From the IMG/VR virus record IMGVR_UViG_3300021963_000113, positions 1-64,000 of that record: a stretch of 64,000 nucleotides of DNA. One strand, 5' to 3'. Made by a program: the position numbers and the translations under genes. Source of the DNA: a virus. Shown piece by piece: positions 23,986 to 58,425 of the stretch. Below the pieces are notes generated by a model, which saw nothing but the letters and a program-made list of their open reading frames with translations, searched no databases and had not been told where the DNA came from. Each line of letters opens with the position of its first letter. Position 1 is the first letter of the stretch.

Positions 23986-24198
23986 TTAATCTTCATAAAT
24001 TCTACATTCTAGTGCTGATGGATTTTCATCACAAAATAATTCCAATGGAGTTGGATCTTTTTCTTCACCAGGATGTCTCTGTTGATATTTTTCCAATGCT
24101 TCTAATTCTTCTTCTGCATGTCTTCTTGACTGTGAAGATGCCATAGCATCGTCAACAATTTTTCTATCATGCTCTATGTGTTTTTGAATGTTTTCCAT
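23986..24198 (-). CDS. cp12: CP12 Calvin cycle inhibitor (70 aa)
   Basis: The C-terminal 20 residues are the CP12 signature: LELFCDENPSALECRIYED, with the paired cysteines C56 and C65. The central ELEALEKYQQRHP helix also matches the short marine cyanobacterial CP12. The N-terminal Cys pair of longer CP12 proteins is absent. In hosts, CP12 binds GAPDH and phosphoribulokinase and shuts down carbon fixation under oxidising conditions. Phage CP12 is known to shift the host towards the pentose phosphate pathway. It sits between the gp27-like gene (1-base gap) and gp5 (2-base gap), so it is expressed with baseplate genes. Confidence 0.92.
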   Translation of the reverse strand: MENIQKHIEHDRKIVDDAMASSQSRRHAEEELEALEKYQQRHPGEEKDPTPLELFCDENPSALECRIYED

Positions 24199-35955: not shown

Positions 35956-36879
35956 TCAGTCTTCCTCAGCAAGGCGAGCGAAGTAACTGAGAGCATCATC
36001 TTCATCCTCGTCTACACCAGCAGCAACTGCAACCTTAGGCAGGGCAGGTTCGCGGCGAGCGATAGGGGCGGGAGCAGTGAATTCTTCATCCTCAATCTCT
36101 TCATCCAGAGTAGGACGAGCAACCTTTGCACGAGCAACGGCAGGAGTTTGAGTAACACCAAGCACCAGATTCAGACGCTCTTCAAGTTCTTCGTAGGACT
36201 TGAAGTTTTCTGCAGCAGTGAAAGCGGCAAGAGAATGCTCTGACTTCCAGATGCTTTCCAGTTGAGAATCATCAGCAGAGAGTGCAGCAGGAGCAGCAAA
36301 CTCAGACTTGTCGTAATTCCAGTAACCAGCAACGTTAGTAATCTTCAGTTTGAAGTTAGCACCTTCCCACATATCAAAGGGATTGATGGGAGTTTCATCT
36401 TCAAACTCAGGTTGCATGGCAGCCATAATCTTGTCAAAGATTTTCTTACCAAACTTATACAAGAATACTTTACCTTCATTCTCAGGGTTTGCTTTGTCGC
36501 TCACCACATAGATGTTAGCATAGTAGGACAGTTTGCGCTTCTGCTTACGAGCAGTTTCTTTATCAGCATCACTGCCGCTATTCCACAGGCGACGATTGAT
36601 TTCACCAACAGGATCTTTGCCACCGATAGTGGTCAGAGAGTTTTCAATATACCAACCACCTGGACCTTGGAAGGCATGACTATACAGTTTTGCCCAGGGT
36701 ACATCTTCACCCTCGGGGGCAGGCAGGAAACGAATGACAGCAAACCCGTTACCAGCAGCATCGACTGACGGTTTCCAGAAACGCTCATCAGCACTGGAAG
36801 AAGAGTTTGCTTTCTCCAACTCTTTAGTAAGAGTTGCGAAATTGTTTTGCGACTTACGCTTAAGGTCAGCAAAAGACAT
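35956..36879 (-). CDS. 32: Single-stranded DNA-binding protein gp32 (307 aa)
   Basis: Starts at ATG 36879 (MSFADLKRKSQNNF), which has GAGGT upstream; a longer frame to 36927 overlaps the leader. LKRKS near the start is the basic LAST-type motif for cooperative binding. The core has NGFAVIRFLPAP, WYIENSLTTIG and IYVVSDKANPENEGKVFLYKFG. The tail is acidic (DEDEDDALSYF), as in T4 gp32, where it recruits other replication proteins. No CxxC zinc site as in T4 is obvious. Confidence 0.92.
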   Translation of the reverse strand: MSFADLKRKSQNNFATLTKELEKANSSSSADERFWKPSVDAAGNGFAVIRFLPAPEGEDVPWAKLYSHAFQGPGGWYIENSLTTIGGKDPVGEINRRLWNSGSDADKETARKQKRKLSYYANIYVVSDKANPENEGKVFLYKFGKKIFDKIMAAMQPEFEDETPINPFDMWEGANFKLKITNVAGYWNYDKSEFAAPAALSADDSQLESIWKSEHSLAAFTAAENFKSYEELEERLNLVLGVTQTPAVARAKVARPTLDEEIEDEEFTAPAPIARREPALPKVAVAAGVDEDEDDALSYFARLAEED

Positions 36880-44710: not shown

Positions 44711-45790
44711 TCAACCGATTGCAGGTGCGGTGAGAGCAACAGGAGTTGCACTAGCAGCAGCAAGGTCAAGAGGGAAGTTGTGAGCGTTGCGCTCGTGCAT
44801 CACTTCCATGCCCAGACCAGCACGGTTGAGGATGTCTGCCCAAGTGTTAATCACATGACCTTGACTATCCTGGATGGACTGGTTGAAGTTGAAACCGTTG
44901 AGGTTGAATGCCATGGTGCTAACACCAAGAGCAGTGAACCAGATACCAACCACAGGCCAAGCAGCAAGGAAGAAGTGCAGCGAGCGTGAGTTATTAAACG
45001 ATGCGTACTGGAAGATCAGACGACCGAAGTAACCATGAGCAGCTACAATGTTGTAGGTCTCTTCTTCTTGTCCGAACTTGTATCCGTAGTTTTGTGATTC
45101 GTTTTCAGTCGTCTCACGAACGAGTGAGCTTGTGACCAAAGATCCATGCATAGCAGAGAAAAGAGAACCGCCAAATACACCAGCCACCCCAAGCATATGG
45201 AAGGGGTGCATGAGGATGTTATGCTCCGCCTGGAAAACAAGCATGTAGTTAAATGTTCCACTAATGCCGAGCGGCATAGCATCAGAGAAGGAACCTTGTC
45301 CAAAGGGATACACGAGGAAAACTGCAGAAGCAGCAGCAACGGGTGCGCTGTAGGCAACACAAATCCAAGGACGCATACCAAGTCGGTAAGAAAGTTCCCA
45401 TTCGCGTCCCATGTAAGCATAGATGCCAATCAGAAAGTGAAAGACGACCAGTTGGAAAGGTCCACCATTATATAGCCACTCATCGAGAGAAGCAGCTTCC
45501 CAAATGGGGTAGAAGTGCAGTCCAATAGCGTTGGACGATGGGACAACAGCACCAGAGATGATGTTGTTTCCATACATGAGTGAACCAGCAACGGGTTCAC
45601 GGATACCATCAATGTCCACAGGAGGAGCAGCGATGAAAGCAACAATGAAACAGATAGTAGCAGCGAGAAGGGTAGGAATCATTAGAGTTCCAAACCAACC
45701 GACATAGAGACGGTTATCAGTAGAAGTGATCCACTCACAGAACTGTTGCCAAGTATTTGATTGTCGTTGTTGTGAAAGTGTAGCAGTCAT
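44711..45790 (-). CDS. psbA: Photosystem II D1 protein PsbA (359 aa)
   Basis: Full-length D1 with no intron or gap. Five membrane helices; the [19 protein letters not shown] tail contains the usual processing site after LDLA. Residue 130 is Glu (GRE at 128-130), the form of the high-light D1 variant. D1 turns over fast, and the phage copy keeps photosystem II working during infection. It has its own promoter, a structured leader and a terminator. There is no psbD next to it. No obvious ribosome site lies before the ATG. Confidence 0.98.
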
Positions 45791-51977: not shown

Positions 51978-53822
51978 ATGTCGATTAAAAAAATTCCTAT
52001 TGCTATTGGAATTAAACCAAATCAGGTAGCAACATTTACCAACAAAACTCTTGATGGCACCCAGAATATATTTCAGAATATTCCAACAGGTGCTCTGCAG
52101 TTTAATACCATTACAATTAATGGAAGCACTATTCCTCTTGGCGGTTCTATCAACATTCAAGCTCAAGGTGGAGCTCCAATTGTTGATACCAACACTACTT
52201 ATAGCATTAAAGCATCCACTGTTACTAGTGGAGCACGTTTAGATTTAGATGCTGGTGGTAGTGGAGCAGGCACAGATTCAGTTAACTTCATTGGTGCTGG
52301 TAATGTAACTGTGTCTAGAATAGATGACAATACTATTAGAATTAGTGACGCTGGAACACTTGGCGGAGTTGCGTTAACTGCAGATAACACTGCAACACTA
52401 ACAAATAAAACTATCAGTGGAAACACTAATATATTATCAAATATTCCAAACACCGCATTAAATAATTCATCCATTACAATTAATGGAGAATCAGTTCCTC
52501 TTGGTGGAAGCATCACTATTGCAGGTGGTGGAGGAGGTGGTTCAGGAGATGTAACTCTTGCAGGAATTCAAACTCTCTTCAATAAAACAATTTCTGGCAT
52601 ATACAATAGTTTTGATAATATTCCAAATAGTGCTTTATTAAATCCTTTTATTAGAATTAATGGTAATGTAGTTAATTTAGGATCTAATTTTACCGTAACG
52701 GGTTTAGGTGATGTAACAACCACGGGAGTCCAAGATTTATCAAATAAATCTTTAGCAGCTCCAATTATTCAAGATGCAAAATTAACTGGTACACTCAGAA
52801 TTGGAACAGTAGGGGGAGGAAACCCTGGGGTAAACGGCCAAGTATTAAAATCTACTGGCACTGGAGTTGCTTGGGTTGATGAAAATCGCACTACTGCATC
52901 AACACTAGTTGTGGGGTCTGGTCTCACTGGAACAGGAGGCACTGAGTTTGACGGATCTAATGGCATTACTATTTCTGTCAACACTGGTATTGTTGCTACA
53001 TTAACTGGCACCCAAACATTAACAAACAAAACTTTAACAGCACCTAATCTAACAGGCGATTTAAAAATTAATAATGTTTCTGGCACCGCTGGACAAACCA
53101 TTGTTTCTGATGGCGCAGGTGGTCTCACATGGGGTGCTGGTGGAGGTGGAGGAAGCGGAAGCTTCAATGGACCAGGATCAGCAGTTGATAATGCTATTGT
53201 TAGATTCGATGGAACCACTGGTGCATTAGCACAAAACTCTTTAGTCACCATCTCAGATACTGGTGTGATTACAGCACCATCTGTAGGAAGCGTAATTCCT
53301 TTTTATCATTCAAGTCCATTAGCATTCCCATCTGCTTCAACATACAACGGAGCAGTAGCAGTTGCAGCAAGTGATAACACTATTCACTTTGCAAGTGGTG
53401 GTAACTGGATTCAACTTGCTAAATCCACTGAAGTTGCAGTTTCTAGTAGACAAACTTTCTCAACTACGACATCAGCATTAGCAAATAATGCACCTGCATA
53501 CCCAGATATTACTAATGCATACAAGTCTTATCTACTATTCAAAATTCAAACTGATAGAGCAGCATGGGTAAGAGTTTACACATCTGTTGCTGCAAGAACT
53601 GCAGATTCAACAAGAAGTATTGATGTTGATCCATTGCCAGGTAGCGGTGTTATCGCAGAAGTCATTACTACAGGTGCTTCTACTCAAGTATTAACACCAG
53701 CGGTAATCGGTTTTAATGACCAAGCATCTCCAGTTAATACAATTTATCTTGCTGTGACAAATAGAAGTGGCGTAACTGCCGCAGTAACCGTAACATTAAC
53801 CGCCCTCAAGCTAGAAGCATGA
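51978..53822 (+). CDS. Tail fibre protein B (614 aa), paralogue of fibre A
   Basis: Same building blocks as fibre A: NKT...IPNTALNNSSITINGESVPLGGSI units with Gly-rich linkers. The C-terminal domain (LFKIQTDRAAWVRVYTSVA ... TLTALKLEA) is clearly homologous to the end of fibre A, while the middle is shorter and differs. Probably arose by duplication. The stop overlaps the protease gene by four bases. Confidence 0.85.
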   Translation: MSIKKIPIAIGIKPNQVATFTNKTLDGTQNIFQNIPTGALQFNTITINGSTIPLGGSINIQAQGGAPIVDTNTTYSIKASTVTSGARLDLDAGGSGAGTDSVNFIGAGNVTVSRIDDNTIRISDAGTLGGVALTADNTATLTNKTISGNTNILSNIPNTALNNSSITINGESVPLGGSITIAGGGGGGSGDVTLAGIQTLFNKTISGIYNSFDNIPNSALLNPFIRINGNVVNLGSNFTVTGLGDVTTTGVQDLSNKSLAAPIIQDAKLTGTLRIGTVGGGNPGVNGQVLKSTGTGVAWVDENRTTASTLVVGSGLTGTGGTEFDGSNGITISVNTGIVATLTGTQTLTNKTLTAPNLTGDLKINNVSGTAGQTIVSDGAGGLTWGAGGGGGSGSFNGPGSAVDNAIVRFDGTTGALAQNSLVTISDTGVITAPSVGSVIPFYHSSPLAFPSASTYNGAVAVAASDNTIHFASGGNWIQLAKSTEVAVSSRQTFSTTTSALANNAPAYPDITNAYKSYLLFKIQTDRAAWVRVYTSVAARTADSTRSIDVDPLPGSGVIAEVITTGASTQVLTPAVIGFNDQASPVNTIYLAVTNRSGVTAAVTVTLTALKLEA

Positions 53823-55558
53823 TGGAAAGAGAATACATCGTAACAGCTAAAACAAAAGAAGATTTAGAAAGTTTATATAATGACTTAGAAACTATCGGTG
53901 GTTGTGATTGCATTCCAGATAGAGAAGTTGAGTGTGTCCATAGAAGGCCAATTAGTAGAAATACACATTATTATTTGACTGATGAAGAAGCAGAGTTAAT
54001 TAAAAAAGACCCTAGAGTTTTAGACGTTGCTTTAACTCCAGAAGAAAGAGGCGCTACAATTACTCCACAATATACTTTATCTACTACTACATGGAACAAA
54101 TCTAATACAAATAATGATGCTCATAGATCATGGGCAATGTATAGATGTGTAAATGGAGCGACAGTTGCAAACTGGGGAAGTGATAGCACAGCAAGTCAAA
54201 ACGCTACAGTTTTATTTACAAGCACTGGAAAAAACGTAGATGTTGTAGTTGTTGATGGTTGTTTCGACCCAGCACACCCAGAATTTGCAGTTAATGAAGC
54301 AGGCACTGGGGGGAGTAGAGTTAATCAATTCAATTGGTTTTCTTTAAACCCAGAAGTAACAGGCGGGGCTGCTGGAACCTATCTATATACAAATGTCGGT
54401 GGTAACTATATCAATGGTACAGCAGGACAGCAAAGTGACAATAACCATGGTTGCCATGTCGCAGGGACAGTATCTGGTAATAGAAGAGGATGGGCAAGAG
54501 AAGCAAACATTTATAATATAAACCCATATGGTAGTGCTCCTTCTACTATTACATCAAGTTTGTTAATTGACTATATCAGAGCATGGCACAATAGTAAAGC
54601 AGTAAATACAACTACTGGTAGAAAGAATCCAACTATAACCAATCACAGTTATGGTATCACATATAATGTCGCCATATCAAATATAGATTATGTGATATAC
54701 AGAGGCACTCAATATAATAGTCCCACTGCTGCACAATTAACTACATTTGGACTATTAAATAACGGCACAACTGTGCTAAACATTCCTTATGTATCAACCG
54801 CAGCAAATGTAGATATTCAAGATGCAATTGCAGATGGAATTATTTTTGTCGCTGCAGCAGGCAATAGCTCTTTCAAAATAGATGTTGCTGGTGGTCAAGA
54901 TTATGATAATCAAATAAAAGAAGTTGGATTTGCTGCAGATTATTATCATAGAGGTTCTTCACCTGGAGCATTGGATAATGTAATTTGTGTTGGTAACATC
55001 GATGCTACTGTAGTAGAACAAAAAGCAACTTCAAGTAATTGTGGTCCAAGAATTGATGTGTATGCTCCTGGCACTAATATCATATCATCTGTACATAGTA
55101 ATGAAGCGGGTGTGTCAGATTCTAGAACTAATACAATAGCAGCAGAAGTTATAAAATATAATGGCACCAGTATGGCATCGCCAAATGTTGCTGGTGTCGT
55201 TGCTTGCTTAGCAGAGCAGTGGCCAAGAATGACACAGGCAGAAGTCAGAGCATATCTTGGTGCTAGCTCATGGGGACAAACTAATTTAGCAAAACTAAAT
55301 CAAGTTAATGATAACAACAACACCAATAGACCTTTACAAGGAAGTCCTAATAGATACTTATTCTACCCAATGGTAAGAAGAGTGCCAAATCCATCTGGAA
55401 CTACTTGGGTCGGAGGACAAACTACTTCACAAATTTCATTTCCAAGAAACGATAATAAATTCAGACCAGTATTAAACACTGGCAACCCAGATTCTACTCT
55501 ATATAATTCTAGTATGGTTTATCCACGACATCCAATTTGGAATAGAAGTTTGACATAA
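53819..55558 (+). CDS. Subtilisin-like serine protease (579 aa)
   Basis: Complete S8 peptidase triad in order: D146 in VVVVDG, H210 in NNHGCHVAGT, and S451 in NGTSMASPNVAG, with the oxyanion-hole N349 in AAAGNSS. About 140 residues precede the catalytic domain. No signal peptide. It is coupled to fibre B by a 4-base overlap and is the last gene of the fibre block. It may mature a fibre, ride in the virion and cut host surface protein, or act inside the cell; none is shown. The start may be the second of two ATGs. Confidence 0.92.
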   Translation: MMEREYIVTAKTKEDLESLYNDLETIGGCDCIPDREVECVHRRPISRNTHYYLTDEEAELIKKDPRVLDVALTPEERGATITPQYTLSTTTWNKSNTNNDAHRSWAMYRCVNGATVANWGSDSTASQNATVLFTSTGKNVDVVVVDGCFDPAHPEFAVNEAGTGGSRVNQFNWFSLNPEVTGGAAGTYLYTNVGGNYINGTAGQQSDNNHGCHVAGTVSGNRRGWAREANIYNINPYGSAPSTITSSLLIDYIRAWHNSKAVNTTTGRKNPTITNHSYGITYNVAISNIDYVIYRGTQYNSPTAAQLTTFGLLNNGTTVLNIPYVSTAANVDIQDAIADGIIFVAAAGNSSFKIDVAGGQDYDNQIKEVGFAADYYHRGSSPGALDNVICVGNIDATVVEQKATSSNCGPRIDVYAPGTNIISSVHSNEAGVSDSRTNTIAAEVIKYNGTSMASPNVAGVVACLAEQWPRMTQAEVRAYLGASSWGQTNLAKLNQVNDNNNTNRPLQGSPNRYLFYPMVRRVPNPSGTTWVGGQTTSQISFPRNDNKFRPVLNTGNPDSTLYNSSMVYPRHPIWNRSLT

Positions 55559-55720: not shown

Positions 55721-56014
55721 TCAGTTAAGGTTTTCTTCTTGTTCAGTAAGGATGACGCAATCGCTGGTGGGATATGCTACGCAAGTGAGCACCCAACCAT
55801 CAGCAAGTTGGTCGTCATCAAGGAAAGATTGCTCTTCATTATCTACTGTACCGCTAATGAGTTTGCCAGCACAAGCAGAGCAAGCGCCAGCACGGCAACT
55901 GGAAGGTAAATCAATGCCAGCCTCTTCAGCTGCTTCAAGAATGTATTGATCTTCAGGACACTGAATAGTTGCCTCGGTGCCATCAGGTGAGCGGAGGGTA
56001 ACGGAATAAGTCAT
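55721..56014 (-). CDS. petF: 2Fe-2S ferredoxin PetF (97 aa)
   Basis: Plant-type ferredoxin: C40, C45, C48 and C78 (CRAGACSAC, then LTC). Carries electrons from photosystem I. May feed the phage bilin reductase, ribonucleotide synthesis or other reactions. Its start overlaps the stop of the 28-residue peptide (TAATG). Confidence 0.93.
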
Positions 56015-56100
56015 TAGTAAGTTTCACAAAGTTTTTCTACGGAATACGACAGCAACACGAGGAAGCTGACACTAGTGATTATAAAGGTAAATTCTGCCAT
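56014..56100 (-). CDS. Small single-helix membrane peptide (28 aa)
   Basis: Reads [21 protein letters not shown] and ends EKLCETY. One membrane helix at residues 4 to 20. Its TAA overlaps the petF ATG. No clear ribosome site. It recalls small photosystem or cytochrome subunits such as PetN in size only. Confidence 0.5.
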
Positions 56101-56113
56101 AGTCAATCAATTG

Positions 56114-56308
56114 TCAGAAGATGCCGAAGAAGAGCTTGCCAGTGACCATATAAGAAATAGCACCAGCAACAATGCCGACCATAGCCCAGCGTCCATTATA
56201 CTTCTCCTTTACTTGGTTTGGGGTGTCCATACCATAGTTTTCGTAATACATGGTAGGCTCTTTGGCAAACATATTCTGTTGACCAAACTCATTGGTTGTG
56301 ACAGTCAT
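56114..56308 (-). CDS. hli: High-light-inducible protein (64 aa)
   Basis: A 35-residue N-terminal extension, then the Hli helix EKYNGRWAMVGIVAG (residues 35-49) with the E-x-x-N-x-R pigment-binding motif, ending TGKLFFGIF. First gene after the promoter at 56333. Confidence 0.9.
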   Translation of the reverse strand: MTVTTNEFGQQNMFAKEPTMYYENYGMDTPNQVKEKYNGRWAMVGIVAGAISYMVTGKLFFGIF

Positions 56309-56430: not shown

Positions 56431-56556
56431 ATGAGATATATCCATATCTGCTTACTACTTTGGAATGGCAGAACTGAATGGAGAACTATTCCATGGGGCA
56501 AAAAACACCTTGATTTTCATAGAAAACATGGTGACATAATAATGTATAAAGAGTAA
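56431..56556 (+). CDS. Small hypothetical protein (41 aa)
   Basis: Reads MRYIHICLLLWNGR to GDIIMYKE. No clear ribosome site; close to the promoter, so possibly a leaderless message. The next gene follows after four bases. Confidence 0.5.
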   Translation: MRYIHICLLLWNGRTEWRTIPWGKKHLDFHRKHGDIIMYKE

Positions 56557-56560
56557 TCTT

Positions 56561-56773
56561 ATGTATAACTTATCAAGCAAAGACGTTAATAGAATTATCA
56601 CTGCTTGCAAACACTATGCTTACCATGAGACAGGCAGCGAATGGATGCATGATGAATATATTAATATCATCGAAAAACTTTGCACTTACTTAGAGCAAAA
56701 CTTCGATGACGAAACTCCAAAGCCGTTGGAATGTTACATTCGTGTAAAGAAAGATGACTCATCTGATAGTTGA
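56561..56773 (+). CDS. Small hypothetical protein (70 aa)
   Basis: Reads MYNLSSKDVNRIITACKHYA and ends in an acidic tail (KKDDSSDS). Two Cys and several His. No motif. Its end overlaps the next gene by 20 bases. Confidence 0.6.
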   Translation: MYNLSSKDVNRIITACKHYAYHETGSEWMHDEYINIIEKLCTYLEQNFDDETPKPLECYIRVKKDDSSDS

Positions 56774-56924
56774 AATCTTAAATAATCCCATCAGTTTAGG
56801 CATTCTATGCTTTGCCCTTGTTATGTTTCCTATTATAGGTATCGCAAAAATCCATGAGTCACCGAATGAATCAACTCAACCCACAGAAACTGGTAACACA
56901 GAAAGAATGTCAGGAGATGATTGA
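56754..56924 (+). CDS. Small membrane protein (56 aa)
   Basis: Reads MTHLIVEILNNPISLGILCF, with a membrane helix at residues 13 to 31, then a polar Ser/Thr/Glu tail. Overlaps the gene before it (20 bases) and the one after it (71 bases) in different frames. Seen only as an open frame with the right layout. Confidence 0.5.
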   Translation: MTHLIVEILNNPISLGILCFALVMFPIIGIAKIHESPNESTQPTETGNTERMSGDD

Positions 56925-57072
56925 TGCTGCTATACGAAGGCACAATAGGAATGCTTCAATTATTTCTATGTGCGTTGGTTGGGTGGTTCTTGCTTTATTT
57001 GCTGAAGGATTGCTGAGATTGATAGGCGTTATTCCACCCGTACTACCATGGCTCAACATCACGTTGAAATAA
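56854..57072 (+). CDS. Small membrane protein (72 aa)
   Basis: Soluble start (QKLVTQKECQEMIDAAIRRH), then a hydrophobic helix SIISMCVGWVVLALFAEGLL (residues 35-54). A second start at residue 5 is possible. Overlaps both neighbours. Confidence 0.6.
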   Translation: MSHRMNQLNPQKLVTQKECQEMIDAAIRRHNRNASIISMCVGWVVLALFAEGLLRLIGVIPPVLPWLNITLK

Positions 57073-57227
57073 TCGGTATCGTTTTCTTGTTAGTATTTGC
57101 TGCCACGATGTTTTATCAAGGCACCTGCATCATGAAAGGGCAGAGAGGATATTCTCTTAGAGATTATCTCAAGCAAGACAGCACGAATATGCGTAAAAGA
57201 ATAGAAGAACTATTAAAAGACAAATGA
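57048..57227 (+). CDS. Small membrane protein (59 aa)
   Basis: Reads MAQHHVEIIGIVFLLVFAA with one membrane helix at residues 7 to 22, then a basic helical tail (MRKRIEELLKDK). Overlaps the gene before by 25 bases and the gene after by four (ATGA). Confidence 0.6.
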   Translation: MAQHHVEIIGIVFLLVFAATMFYQGTCIMKGQRGYSLRDYLKQDSTNMRKRIEELLKDK

Positions 57228-57352
57228 TAGTGTTAACCGAAGAGGATATAAAAGAACTTCAAGAAAGAGTTCTACAACAAAAGATGGATGAATTGTTTGA
57301 AGAGCCATCGACATACGAAGATGATGACTATGGAATTGACAGAATTTATTGA
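57224..57352 (+). CDS. Small acidic protein (42 aa)
   Basis: Reads MIVLTEEDIKELQERVLQQK and ends YEDDDYGIDRIY. Helical, acidic. ATGA overlap with the gene before, 23-base overlap with the gene after. Confidence 0.55.
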   Translation: MIVLTEEDIKELQERVLQQKMDELFEEPSTYEDDDYGIDRIY

Positions 57353-57443
57353 TTTTCTTGACAAACAAATTTTAATTTTTATAGTATTTGTTTGTGGTCT
57401 TATTGTTGGTTACATGTATGGTTTCCGAGACGGAGCAGGATAA
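57330..57443 (+). CDS. Small membrane protein (37 aa)
   Basis: Reads MELTEFIDFLDKQ, then a membrane helix (ILIFIVFVCGLIVGYMY), then GFRDGAG. Its TAA overlaps the next start (TAATG). Confidence 0.6.
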   Translation: MELTEFIDFLDKQILIFIVFVCGLIVGYMYGFRDGAG

Positions 57444-57568
57444 TGGGAGAGTTACCTTGGGGAGTTATTTCTATTCTTGGGGTTGGACTAGCAGGCACAG
57501 CGTATATCATTTATTACATACTTAAATTAGCAGCAGAGGAAATGAAAGATGACCAGCCTCATCATTAA
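57443..57568 (+). CDS. Small membrane protein (41 aa)
   Basis: Reads MGELPWGVISILGVGLAGTA with a membrane helix at residues 6 to 27, then KLAAEEMKDDQPHH. Starts inside the previous stop. Confidence 0.6.
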   Translation: MGELPWGVISILGVGLAGTAYIIYYILKLAAEEMKDDQPHH

Positions 57569-57641
57569 ATCAATGATACTTTTTACATCTATGGGGATGT
57601 TTATTTACTGGGGACTTAACAACGCTTATCCAATCCATTGA
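57549..57641 (+). CDS. Very small membrane peptide (30 aa)
   Basis: Reads MTSLIIKSMILFTSMGMF and ends NNAYPIH. Mostly hydrophobic. Overlaps the gene before by 20 bases; its TGA is inside the TTGACA of the next promoter. Weakest member of the chain. Confidence 0.4.
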   Translation: MTSLIIKSMILFTSMGMFIYWGLNNAYPIH

Positions 57642-57689: not shown

Positions 57690-57890
57690 ATGACACACTA
57701 CAAACCATACTCACCAGAGTGGCATCGGAAACGCTACCTAAAAGAAGCGTTAGATAAGTATTTGGATGAATACATCGACAACGAAGTAATCCTTGATGAT
57801 ATTTCTGATATTCTAGCTGAAAGATCTGAGCGAGCATACGAAGAATTCAGTAGAATCAATGATTTGGAAGCAATGATTAATGCTAAATAA
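57690..57890 (+). CDS. Hypothetical protein (66 aa)
   Basis: Reads MTHYKPYSPEWHRKRYLKEA. Helical and highly charged (KYLDEYIDNEVILDDI). First gene after a strong promoter. Not recognised. Confidence 0.7.
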   Translation: MTHYKPYSPEWHRKRYLKEALDKYLDEYIDNEVILDDISDILAERSERAYEEFSRINDLEAMINAK

Positions 57891-57909: not shown

Positions 57910-58230
57910 ATGCTCTCTACACAATATCGTCTTCGACTGGAAGGAATCTGTCAGAAAATTGCACAGCACGAAGAAGTATCTCTTGAAGACATGATTTGGG
58001 CAGAGAAACTTGCTAAAGCAAATAGAACGGCAGCAACCATTCTACGCCAAGCAAGAAGAACTGCAGAGAATCCCGACATGAAGGAGGGAGATATGGACGA
58101 TTTTTTAAACCAACTTGACATCGGTGGTACAGGTCACGAGCGTTTTGGCAAACGTGGATTTGATAGCGTCGATGATATGGTTGATTGGTGGACTAAAGAC
58201 AAACCTGATGACTGGAGGCAACGTGACTGA
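57910..58230 (+). CDS. Hypothetical protein (106 aa)
   Basis: I start at ATG 57910 (MLSTQYRLRLEGICQKI), which has GGAG eight bases upstream; an in-frame ATG at 57880, overlapping the gene before, is possible. Helical first half, then GTGHERFGKRGFDSVDDMVDWW. Not recognised. Coupled to the next gene. Confidence 0.7.
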   Translation: MLSTQYRLRLEGICQKIAQHEEVSLEDMIWAEKLAKANRTAATILRQARRTAENPDMKEGDMDDFLNQLDIGGTGHERFGKRGFDSVDDMVDWWTKDKPDDWRQRD

Positions 58231-58399
58231 AGAATCTCAAAAAGACAAATGGAATAGAGGTCTAGATTTATTCATTGAGAGTGTGCATAAACCAGACAAT
58301 GAGCTTAGGCAATGTGCCCATGATCAAAAGTGTTATCATGAATTAATGTGGGTGAGAGAAAATGTTTTAGAGTATCTCGCCACTCTACGACACCATTAA
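58223..58399 (+). CDS. Hypothetical protein (58 aa), GTG start
   Basis: Reads (V)TEESQKDKWNRGLDLFIES and ends YLATLRHH. The GTG start overlaps the previous stop by eight bases and has GGAGG at five bases. An ATG at 58208 is the alternative. Contains two Cys and several His. Confidence 0.6.
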   Translation: MTEESQKDKWNRGLDLFIESVHKPDNELRQCAHDQKCYHELMWVRENVLEYLATLRHH

Positions 58400-58425
58400 A
58401 AAAGGGGGCAATTGCCCCCTTTCAT
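58398..58425. terminator. Bidirectional terminator
   Basis: GGGGGC/GCCCCC stem with loop AATT (58404-58419), an A run on the left and TTT with further T on the right. Ends the rightward small-gene transcript and the leftward one. Confidence 0.88.

Follow-up and report, generated by a model that had tools for sequence, protein, structure and literature searches.

We read a chain of nine very small, overlapping genes (g1 to g9) in a cyanophage genome as a translationally coupled early microprotein operon of the photosynthesis and pentose-phosphate cassette, present here without the enzymes and probably acting at the thylakoid, and we assign this reading a probability of about 0.5. The chain lies in the first 64,000 nucleotides of a 67.8-kb virus record (IMG/VR IMGVR_UViG_3300021963_000113), a stretch hereafter called the window (Table 1). 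The preliminary description had placed nine frames of 30 to 72 codons at positions 56431-57641, and the ORF listing and translation bear these coordinates out.

The window reads as a T4-like cyanomyovirus, with psbA and gp32 as markers and 14 tRNA genes. The chain is flanked by divergent hli-like and petF genes on one side and by the tRNA cluster on the other. The hli-like gene resembles a gene of DSL-LC03 labelled 'high light inducible' and has no Pfam match, and no Rfam match was found in 55.7-58.6 kb. Between the hli-like gene and petF lies a gene for a 28-aa microprotein with one membrane helix, joined to petF by TAATG; it is conserved, with 13 distinct sequences in the fetched loci (DSL-LC03 among them), and has no match among PDB sequences. 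Elsewhere in the window, a region adjoining baseplate genes resembles a hypothetical protein of S-TIM54 that is labelled Cp12 (E 2e-12; 54% identity over 70 aa), and a subtilase gene is located directly 3′ of three large structural-looking proteins; an S8 peptidase in P-HM1 and P-HM2 is mentioned by Sullivan 2010 (PMC3037559).

Table 1. Features of the window; for g1 to g9 the length in amino acids (aa) is also the number of codons.
Feature	Coordinates	Strand	Length	Remarks
Cp12-like region	23989-24198	-		
gp53-like match	near 35.3-35.8 kb			
gp32	35959-36879	-		T4-like cyanomyovirus marker
psbA	44711-45790	-		T4-like cyanomyovirus marker
Subtilase	53819-55558	+	579 aa	PF00082
petF, 2Fe-2S ferredoxin	55721-56014	-		PF00111; divergent from chain
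Microprotein	56017-56100	-	28 aa	
hli-like gene	56114-56308	-	64 aa	divergent from chain
Predicted promoter P1	56394-56422	+		TTTGCA-17-TATACT; consensus scan; 8 nt before g1 ATG
g1	56431-56556	+	41 aa	no membrane helix; motif IPWGKxHLD
g2	56561-56773	+	70 aa	soluble; phrog_5190, T4-GC 850
g3	56754-56924	+	56 aa	one membrane helix; phrog_1184, T4-GC 922; tail overlaps g4 by 71 nt
g4	56854-57072	+	72 aa	one long helix (16-57); phrog_1096, T4-GC 246
g5	57048-57227	+	59 aa	one membrane helix; phrog_1953; 25-nt overlap with preceding g4
g6	57224-57352	+	42 aa	acidic, soluble; phrog_2505; motif LFEEP(S/C); ATGA junction with g5
g7	57324-57443	+	39 aa	one membrane helix with GxxxGY; immediately 5′ of PTOX in nine other loci
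TAATG junction g7/g8	57441-57445	+		PTOX position in sister phages
g8	57443-57568	+	41 aa	one membrane helix; phrog_814/25130
g9	57549-57641	+	30 aa	one membrane helix; invariant terminal WG...AY
Predicted promoter P2	57638-57666	+		TTGACA-17-TATAAT (perfect); overlaps g9 stop; serves g10 onward
g10	57690-57890	+	66 aa	soluble; phrog_1461; separate unit, control gene
g11	57910-58230	+	106 aa	conserved partner of g10
g12	58223-58399	+	58 aa	GTG start; 8-nt overlap with g11; read from sequence
Intrinsic-terminator-like hairpin	58401-58422	+		3′ of g12, end of unit

The overlaps are as rule-like as first described: from g1 to g9 the junctions measure +4, -20, -71, -25, -4 (ATGA), -29, -1 (TAATG) and -20 nt, so that seven of the eight overlap. 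At least six products had been described as membrane proteins, and six (g3, g4, g5, g7, g8 and g9) indeed carry one hydrophobic stretch, with mean Kyte-Doolittle values of 1.6-2.6 over 19 residues; by the same measure no such stretch occurs in g1, g2 or g6. The best-defined family is that of g4, which matches phrog_1096 over its full length (E 7e-40, 71/72 residues), takes its T4-GC 246 label from S-SM1 and carries the invariant motif HNRNA...GW..LxLFAEGLLRLxG. Its predicted structure is one helix (mean pLDDT 67) for which no fold match was found.

Frames this short, many of them unannotated in GenBank records, could in principle be chance open frames without products. Under a tiling rule requiring an ATG start, at least 30 codons and junctions of -75 to +10, the region yields 10 chained ORFs, one of them an alternative frame beside the nine, whereas the longest chain in 1000 dinucleotide shuffles under the same rule was 5 and none of the 1000 reached the observed length. 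The antisense strand gave 1, and no 1.2-kb block elsewhere in the window gave more than 5. PHROGs profiles of unknown function match g2, g3, g4, g5, g6 and g8, and translated searches matched 267 phage records for g4, 101 for g3, 55 for g2, 52 for g5, 26 for g8, 25 for g9 and 4 for g6; all names on these records are Synechococcus or Prochlorococcus phage, cyanophage or marine virus. The homologues of g1 and g7 come from metagenomic virus loci (for g1, 41 profile matches among fetched, partly redundant loci), and the g9 family occurs in 448 IMG/VR stretches. All nine frames thus recur in other cyanomyovirus loci. Median dN/dS was 0.08-0.48 per gene (0.09-0.13 for g4), which indicates purifying selection, in families gathered by protein similarity and thereby biased toward low values, with one pair for g2 and three for g1. 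In a sister contig (L133), which is 85% identical, all nine frames are kept with no frame-breaking indels, and the substitutions fall mostly at codon position 3 in g1, g2 and g4-g8, the pattern being unclear for g3 and g9. Together with junction lengths that recur across loci, this conservation sustains the earlier view of real, coupled genes and refutes chance frames, to which we give a negligible probability.

Several of these genes have been overlooked in annotated phages. In S-SM1, g5 (positions 2775-2966 of that locus) was missed by the GenBank annotators, and minus-strand ORFs were called beside and partly over it (T4-GC 1424); g3, g5 and g9 are unannotated in several GenBank records. 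When cellular genomes were scanned with g4 alone, no g4 was found except on three phage-like MAG contigs, and therefore the small genes appear to have arisen in viruses and not to have been taken from hosts, as judged from a cellular scan covering the g4 family. The three contigs carry a cyanophage g4 in assemblies labelled Rhodopirellula, Euryarchaeota and Microbacteriaceae; in the first two, its neighbors are phage gp32/gp53 or gp23/gp3. All three are likely mis-binned phage contigs.

Mapping of the profiles onto annotated phages located the families inside an electron-transport and pentose-phosphate cassette, usually between gp16 and gp17. Across ten annotated phages, families g2, g3, g4, g5, g6, g8 and g9 were mapped to the cassette. 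The order is gp16-g2-petE-PTOX-g4-g5-gnd-zwf-g3-g8-gp17 in S-CAM1, where g2 precedes petE with an ATGA overlap; PTOX-g4-g5-gnd-zwf in S-TIM54; g4-g5-petE-g3-g8-gp17 in S-RIM8; petE-petF-g6-g4-g5-g3-g8-gp17 in S-RIM4; g4-PTOX-gnd-zwf-g3-g8-gp17 in S-PRM1; and petE-PTOX-gnd-zwf-g3-g8 in S-SM2 and S-SSM5. Related orders of the same families and enzymes occur in S-CAM9, ACG-2014e and Syn1. In metagenomic loci picked regardless of enzymes, a same-strand neighbor among petE, PTOX, gnd, zwf, talC and cp12 was found within 1.5 kb in 19/34 g4 loci and 11/34 g9 loci, and in none of the 31 loci of g10, the control small gene outside the chain. Enzyme and small gene lie within 60 nt of each other in 53 direct contacts, 33 of them overlapping, often in the ATGA manner. 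Against our reading, g8-centred loci, which are closer relatives of the window, have few enzyme neighbors (2/29).

The sister contig shows how an enzyme can sit within the chain itself. There, hli is followed by g1-g9 and g10 in the order of the window, with PTOX inserted exactly between g7 and g8. This 167-aa plastoquinol terminal oxidase (alternative oxidase PF01786) shares an ATGA with g7 at its start, and its 3′ end overlaps the start of g8, where the window has TAATG; PTOX occupies the same junction in three other loci. In contrast, tblastn found no petE, PTOX, gnd or zwf in the 64-kb window, and PTOX is absent from the 67.8-kb contig, which is a fragment. Enzyme-free chains were also identified in longer records: one of 190 kb has the same nine genes in the same order as the window, the chain lying near 7-15 kb and gp17 at 62 kb, and further enzyme-free chains occur in records of 172 kb and 193 kb. 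PTOX and gnd gave no match in these three records, with positive controls in the same searches, and petE gave none, without a positive control in that set. The completeness of the records is not stated, and the absence of the enzymes from them is therefore likely rather than proven.

The cyanomyovirus hypervariable (hyperplastic) region between g15/g16 and g17/g18, with its petE/PTOX/gnd/zwf cassette, has been described before (Millard 2009, cited in PMC2984593; Sullivan 2010, PMC3037559), as has the mobility of the enzyme cassette (PMC3037559, PMC2984593); hypothetical proteins in the region and 'small genes' at other hot spots are mentioned in the same papers. The parts of this literature that deal with the region do not, as far as we found, analyze the small membrane families with their overlaps or a chain free of enzymes, and a literature search on small overlapping membrane genes of cyanophages returned nothing. 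The cassette and the window share the same small hypothetical families (T4-GC 246, 850 and 922), which in the cassette stand among the enzymes on the same strand, often overlapping; the window differs in lacking the enzymes and in placing the chain between divergent hli/petF and the tRNA cluster. The chain is not itself a member of the enzyme cassette, because neither the enzymes nor the gp16-gp17 position was found, gp17 having no tblastn match in the window.

The arrangement of the small genes is modular. Across some 90 fetched loci that each carry at least five of the families, gene order varies, but every pair has a favored junction: -25 nt for g4/g5 (75/94 loci), -8 nt for g6/g9 (28/33), -11 nt for g6/g8 (19/24), -4 nt for g5/g6 (27/57), -71 nt for g3/g4 (14/31) and -20 nt for g8/g9 (14/33). 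One gene may have several partners with different overlaps, as g8 does after g7 (-1), g6 (-11) and g4 (-4). In g3 the helix is kept while the C-terminal tail varies between overlapping and free contexts. Such shuffling of order and neighbors with persistent overlap types, together with the change of the g3 tail with its overlap partner, might suggest passengers, i.e., coupled-translation spacers or cassette landing sites in the hypervariable region with little protein function. We consider this distinctly unlikely, since purifying selection acts at the amino-acid level in every gene, down to the g4 values given above, g4 and g9 contain invariant motifs, and chains are retained in phages in which no such enzymes were found.

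Early expression had been proposed for the chain, and the putative signals fit early or middle transcription. Sigma-70-like promoters were predicted before g1 and g10. P1 ends so close to the g1 ATG that the message would be nearly leaderless; its TATACT, 8 nt 5′ of g1, recurs in five other loci and is visible in the sister contig. P2 is conserved at 11-12 of 12 consensus positions in 35/50 relatives. Behind this strongly conserved sigma-70 promoter, g10 and g11 are a conserved pair in their own right, separated by 19 nt in 23/47 loci, and g10 has homologues in 175 phage records. The late motif NATAAATA does not occur between 49.0 and 58.9 kb, and it immediately precedes the structural genes at 46.0 and 16.2 kb. 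Early transcription of the chain is thus plausible as judged from sequence signals, which fit a middle class as well.

The same signals speak against lysis-related peptides of the holin or antiholin type, which small single-helix proteins might otherwise be; one g9 member weakly resembles a PHROG named holin (E 0.066). No significant holin profile match and no late lysis cassette were found, the promoters are of early type with no late motif near the chain, no endolysin was seen beside it, and the context in relatives is one of electron transport, all of which makes such a role highly improbable.

The preliminary description had proposed early membrane-active peptides that alter the host envelope or block other phages; in the manner of T4 Imm and Sp, the latter would mean a block of injection. 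T4 Imm and Sp are small early membrane proteins, and the chain resembles them in being predicted, from its sequence, to encode six single-helix proteins behind sigma-70-like promoters without a late motif; in addition, the gene set differs between phages, as exclusion genes often do. However, no profile match to Imm or Sp was found in PHROGs, Pfam or NCBIfam, where the small genes gave only families of unknown function or sub-threshold matches (in Pfam and NCBIfam, sub-threshold matches only), and the genomic context is different. In many phages, enzymes of electron transport and of the pentose-phosphate pathway are encoded in between these genes, with PTOX inside the chain of the sister contig. 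Moreover, the 71 g4 sequences compared, which were picked by similarity, hardly vary, and g4 would in this differ from most arms-race genes. Action on the envelope or on competing phages is therefore not upheld by our results, and we consider it unlikely. With moderate confidence, we regard the photosynthetic membrane as the better-supported site of action.

A direct relationship to known subunits was also sought. Profiles of g3, g4, g5, g7, g8 and g9 gave no significant match to a known photosynthetic subunit among PDB sequences, and identity with a small photosystem or cytochrome subunit was rejected. The best candidate was g9 against NdhQ, a small subunit of cyanobacterial NDH-1 that is about as long, also has a single helix and shares W..L..AY at the C terminus. 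The likeness is weak and non-significant: the profile matches have E 0.05 and 0.17, and a value of 0.05 lies within the noise to be expected when six profiles are searched. Individual g9 sequences resemble MrpF and CoxIIa to about the same degree.

We return to the thylakoid reading of the chain. The small proteins probably act on the host photosynthetic machinery, and not on the outer envelope, because in relatives their genes are joined end to end with electron-redirecting genes. PTOX acts at the plastoquinone pool, petE and petF in plastocyanin and ferredoxin electron transfer, and gnd and zwf in NADPH supply. It would be most economical if the small membrane proteins served the same process, at the same membrane, as these co-operonic partners. 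The nine genes would form one coupled early operon with six single-helix membrane products, corresponding to the small-gene part of a cassette that includes petE, petF, PTOX, gnd, zwf and talC, with the version in the window facing hli and petF. Enzymes and small genes would be alternative modules joined at stop/start overlaps, so that coupled translation survives the entry or exit of a module. In the least certain step, the small proteins would enter the thylakoid membrane of infected cells and, at the plastoquinone pool, may bind to electron-transport complexes of photosynthesis or respiration, which would maintain electron flow and ATP supply for phage synthesis. In a published model, infection diverts electrons to oxygen via PTOX and to cyclic flow via NDH (PMC5082946).

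The neighborhood may instead reflect a shared insertion hot spot and not a shared function, an objection that arises because some phages have g4 between gp23 and gp3, and beside gp32. In a more specific form of the thylakoid reading, which we put forward only tentatively, exchangeable, virus-invented thylakoid microproteins may dock on photosynthetic complexes and retune electron flow, with enzymes such as PTOX and gnd as optional additions and some lineages, that of the window among them, using the microproteins alone.

Cyanophages kill primary producers of the sea and of fresh water on a large scale, and research on their photosynthesis genes has treated these almost only as captured host enzymes. 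The chain shares with the host-like genes psbA, hli, petE, petF and PTOX a transcriptional neighborhood and a membrane or electron-transport setting, whereas its own genes look viral and not captured. Small viral membrane genes are thus constant companions of those enzymes and persist in phages in which no such enzymes were found. This makes it possible to test what many uncharacterized cyanophage genes do, and the overlaps offer a specific model for the gain and loss of auxiliary genes by an operon whose translational coupling stays intact.
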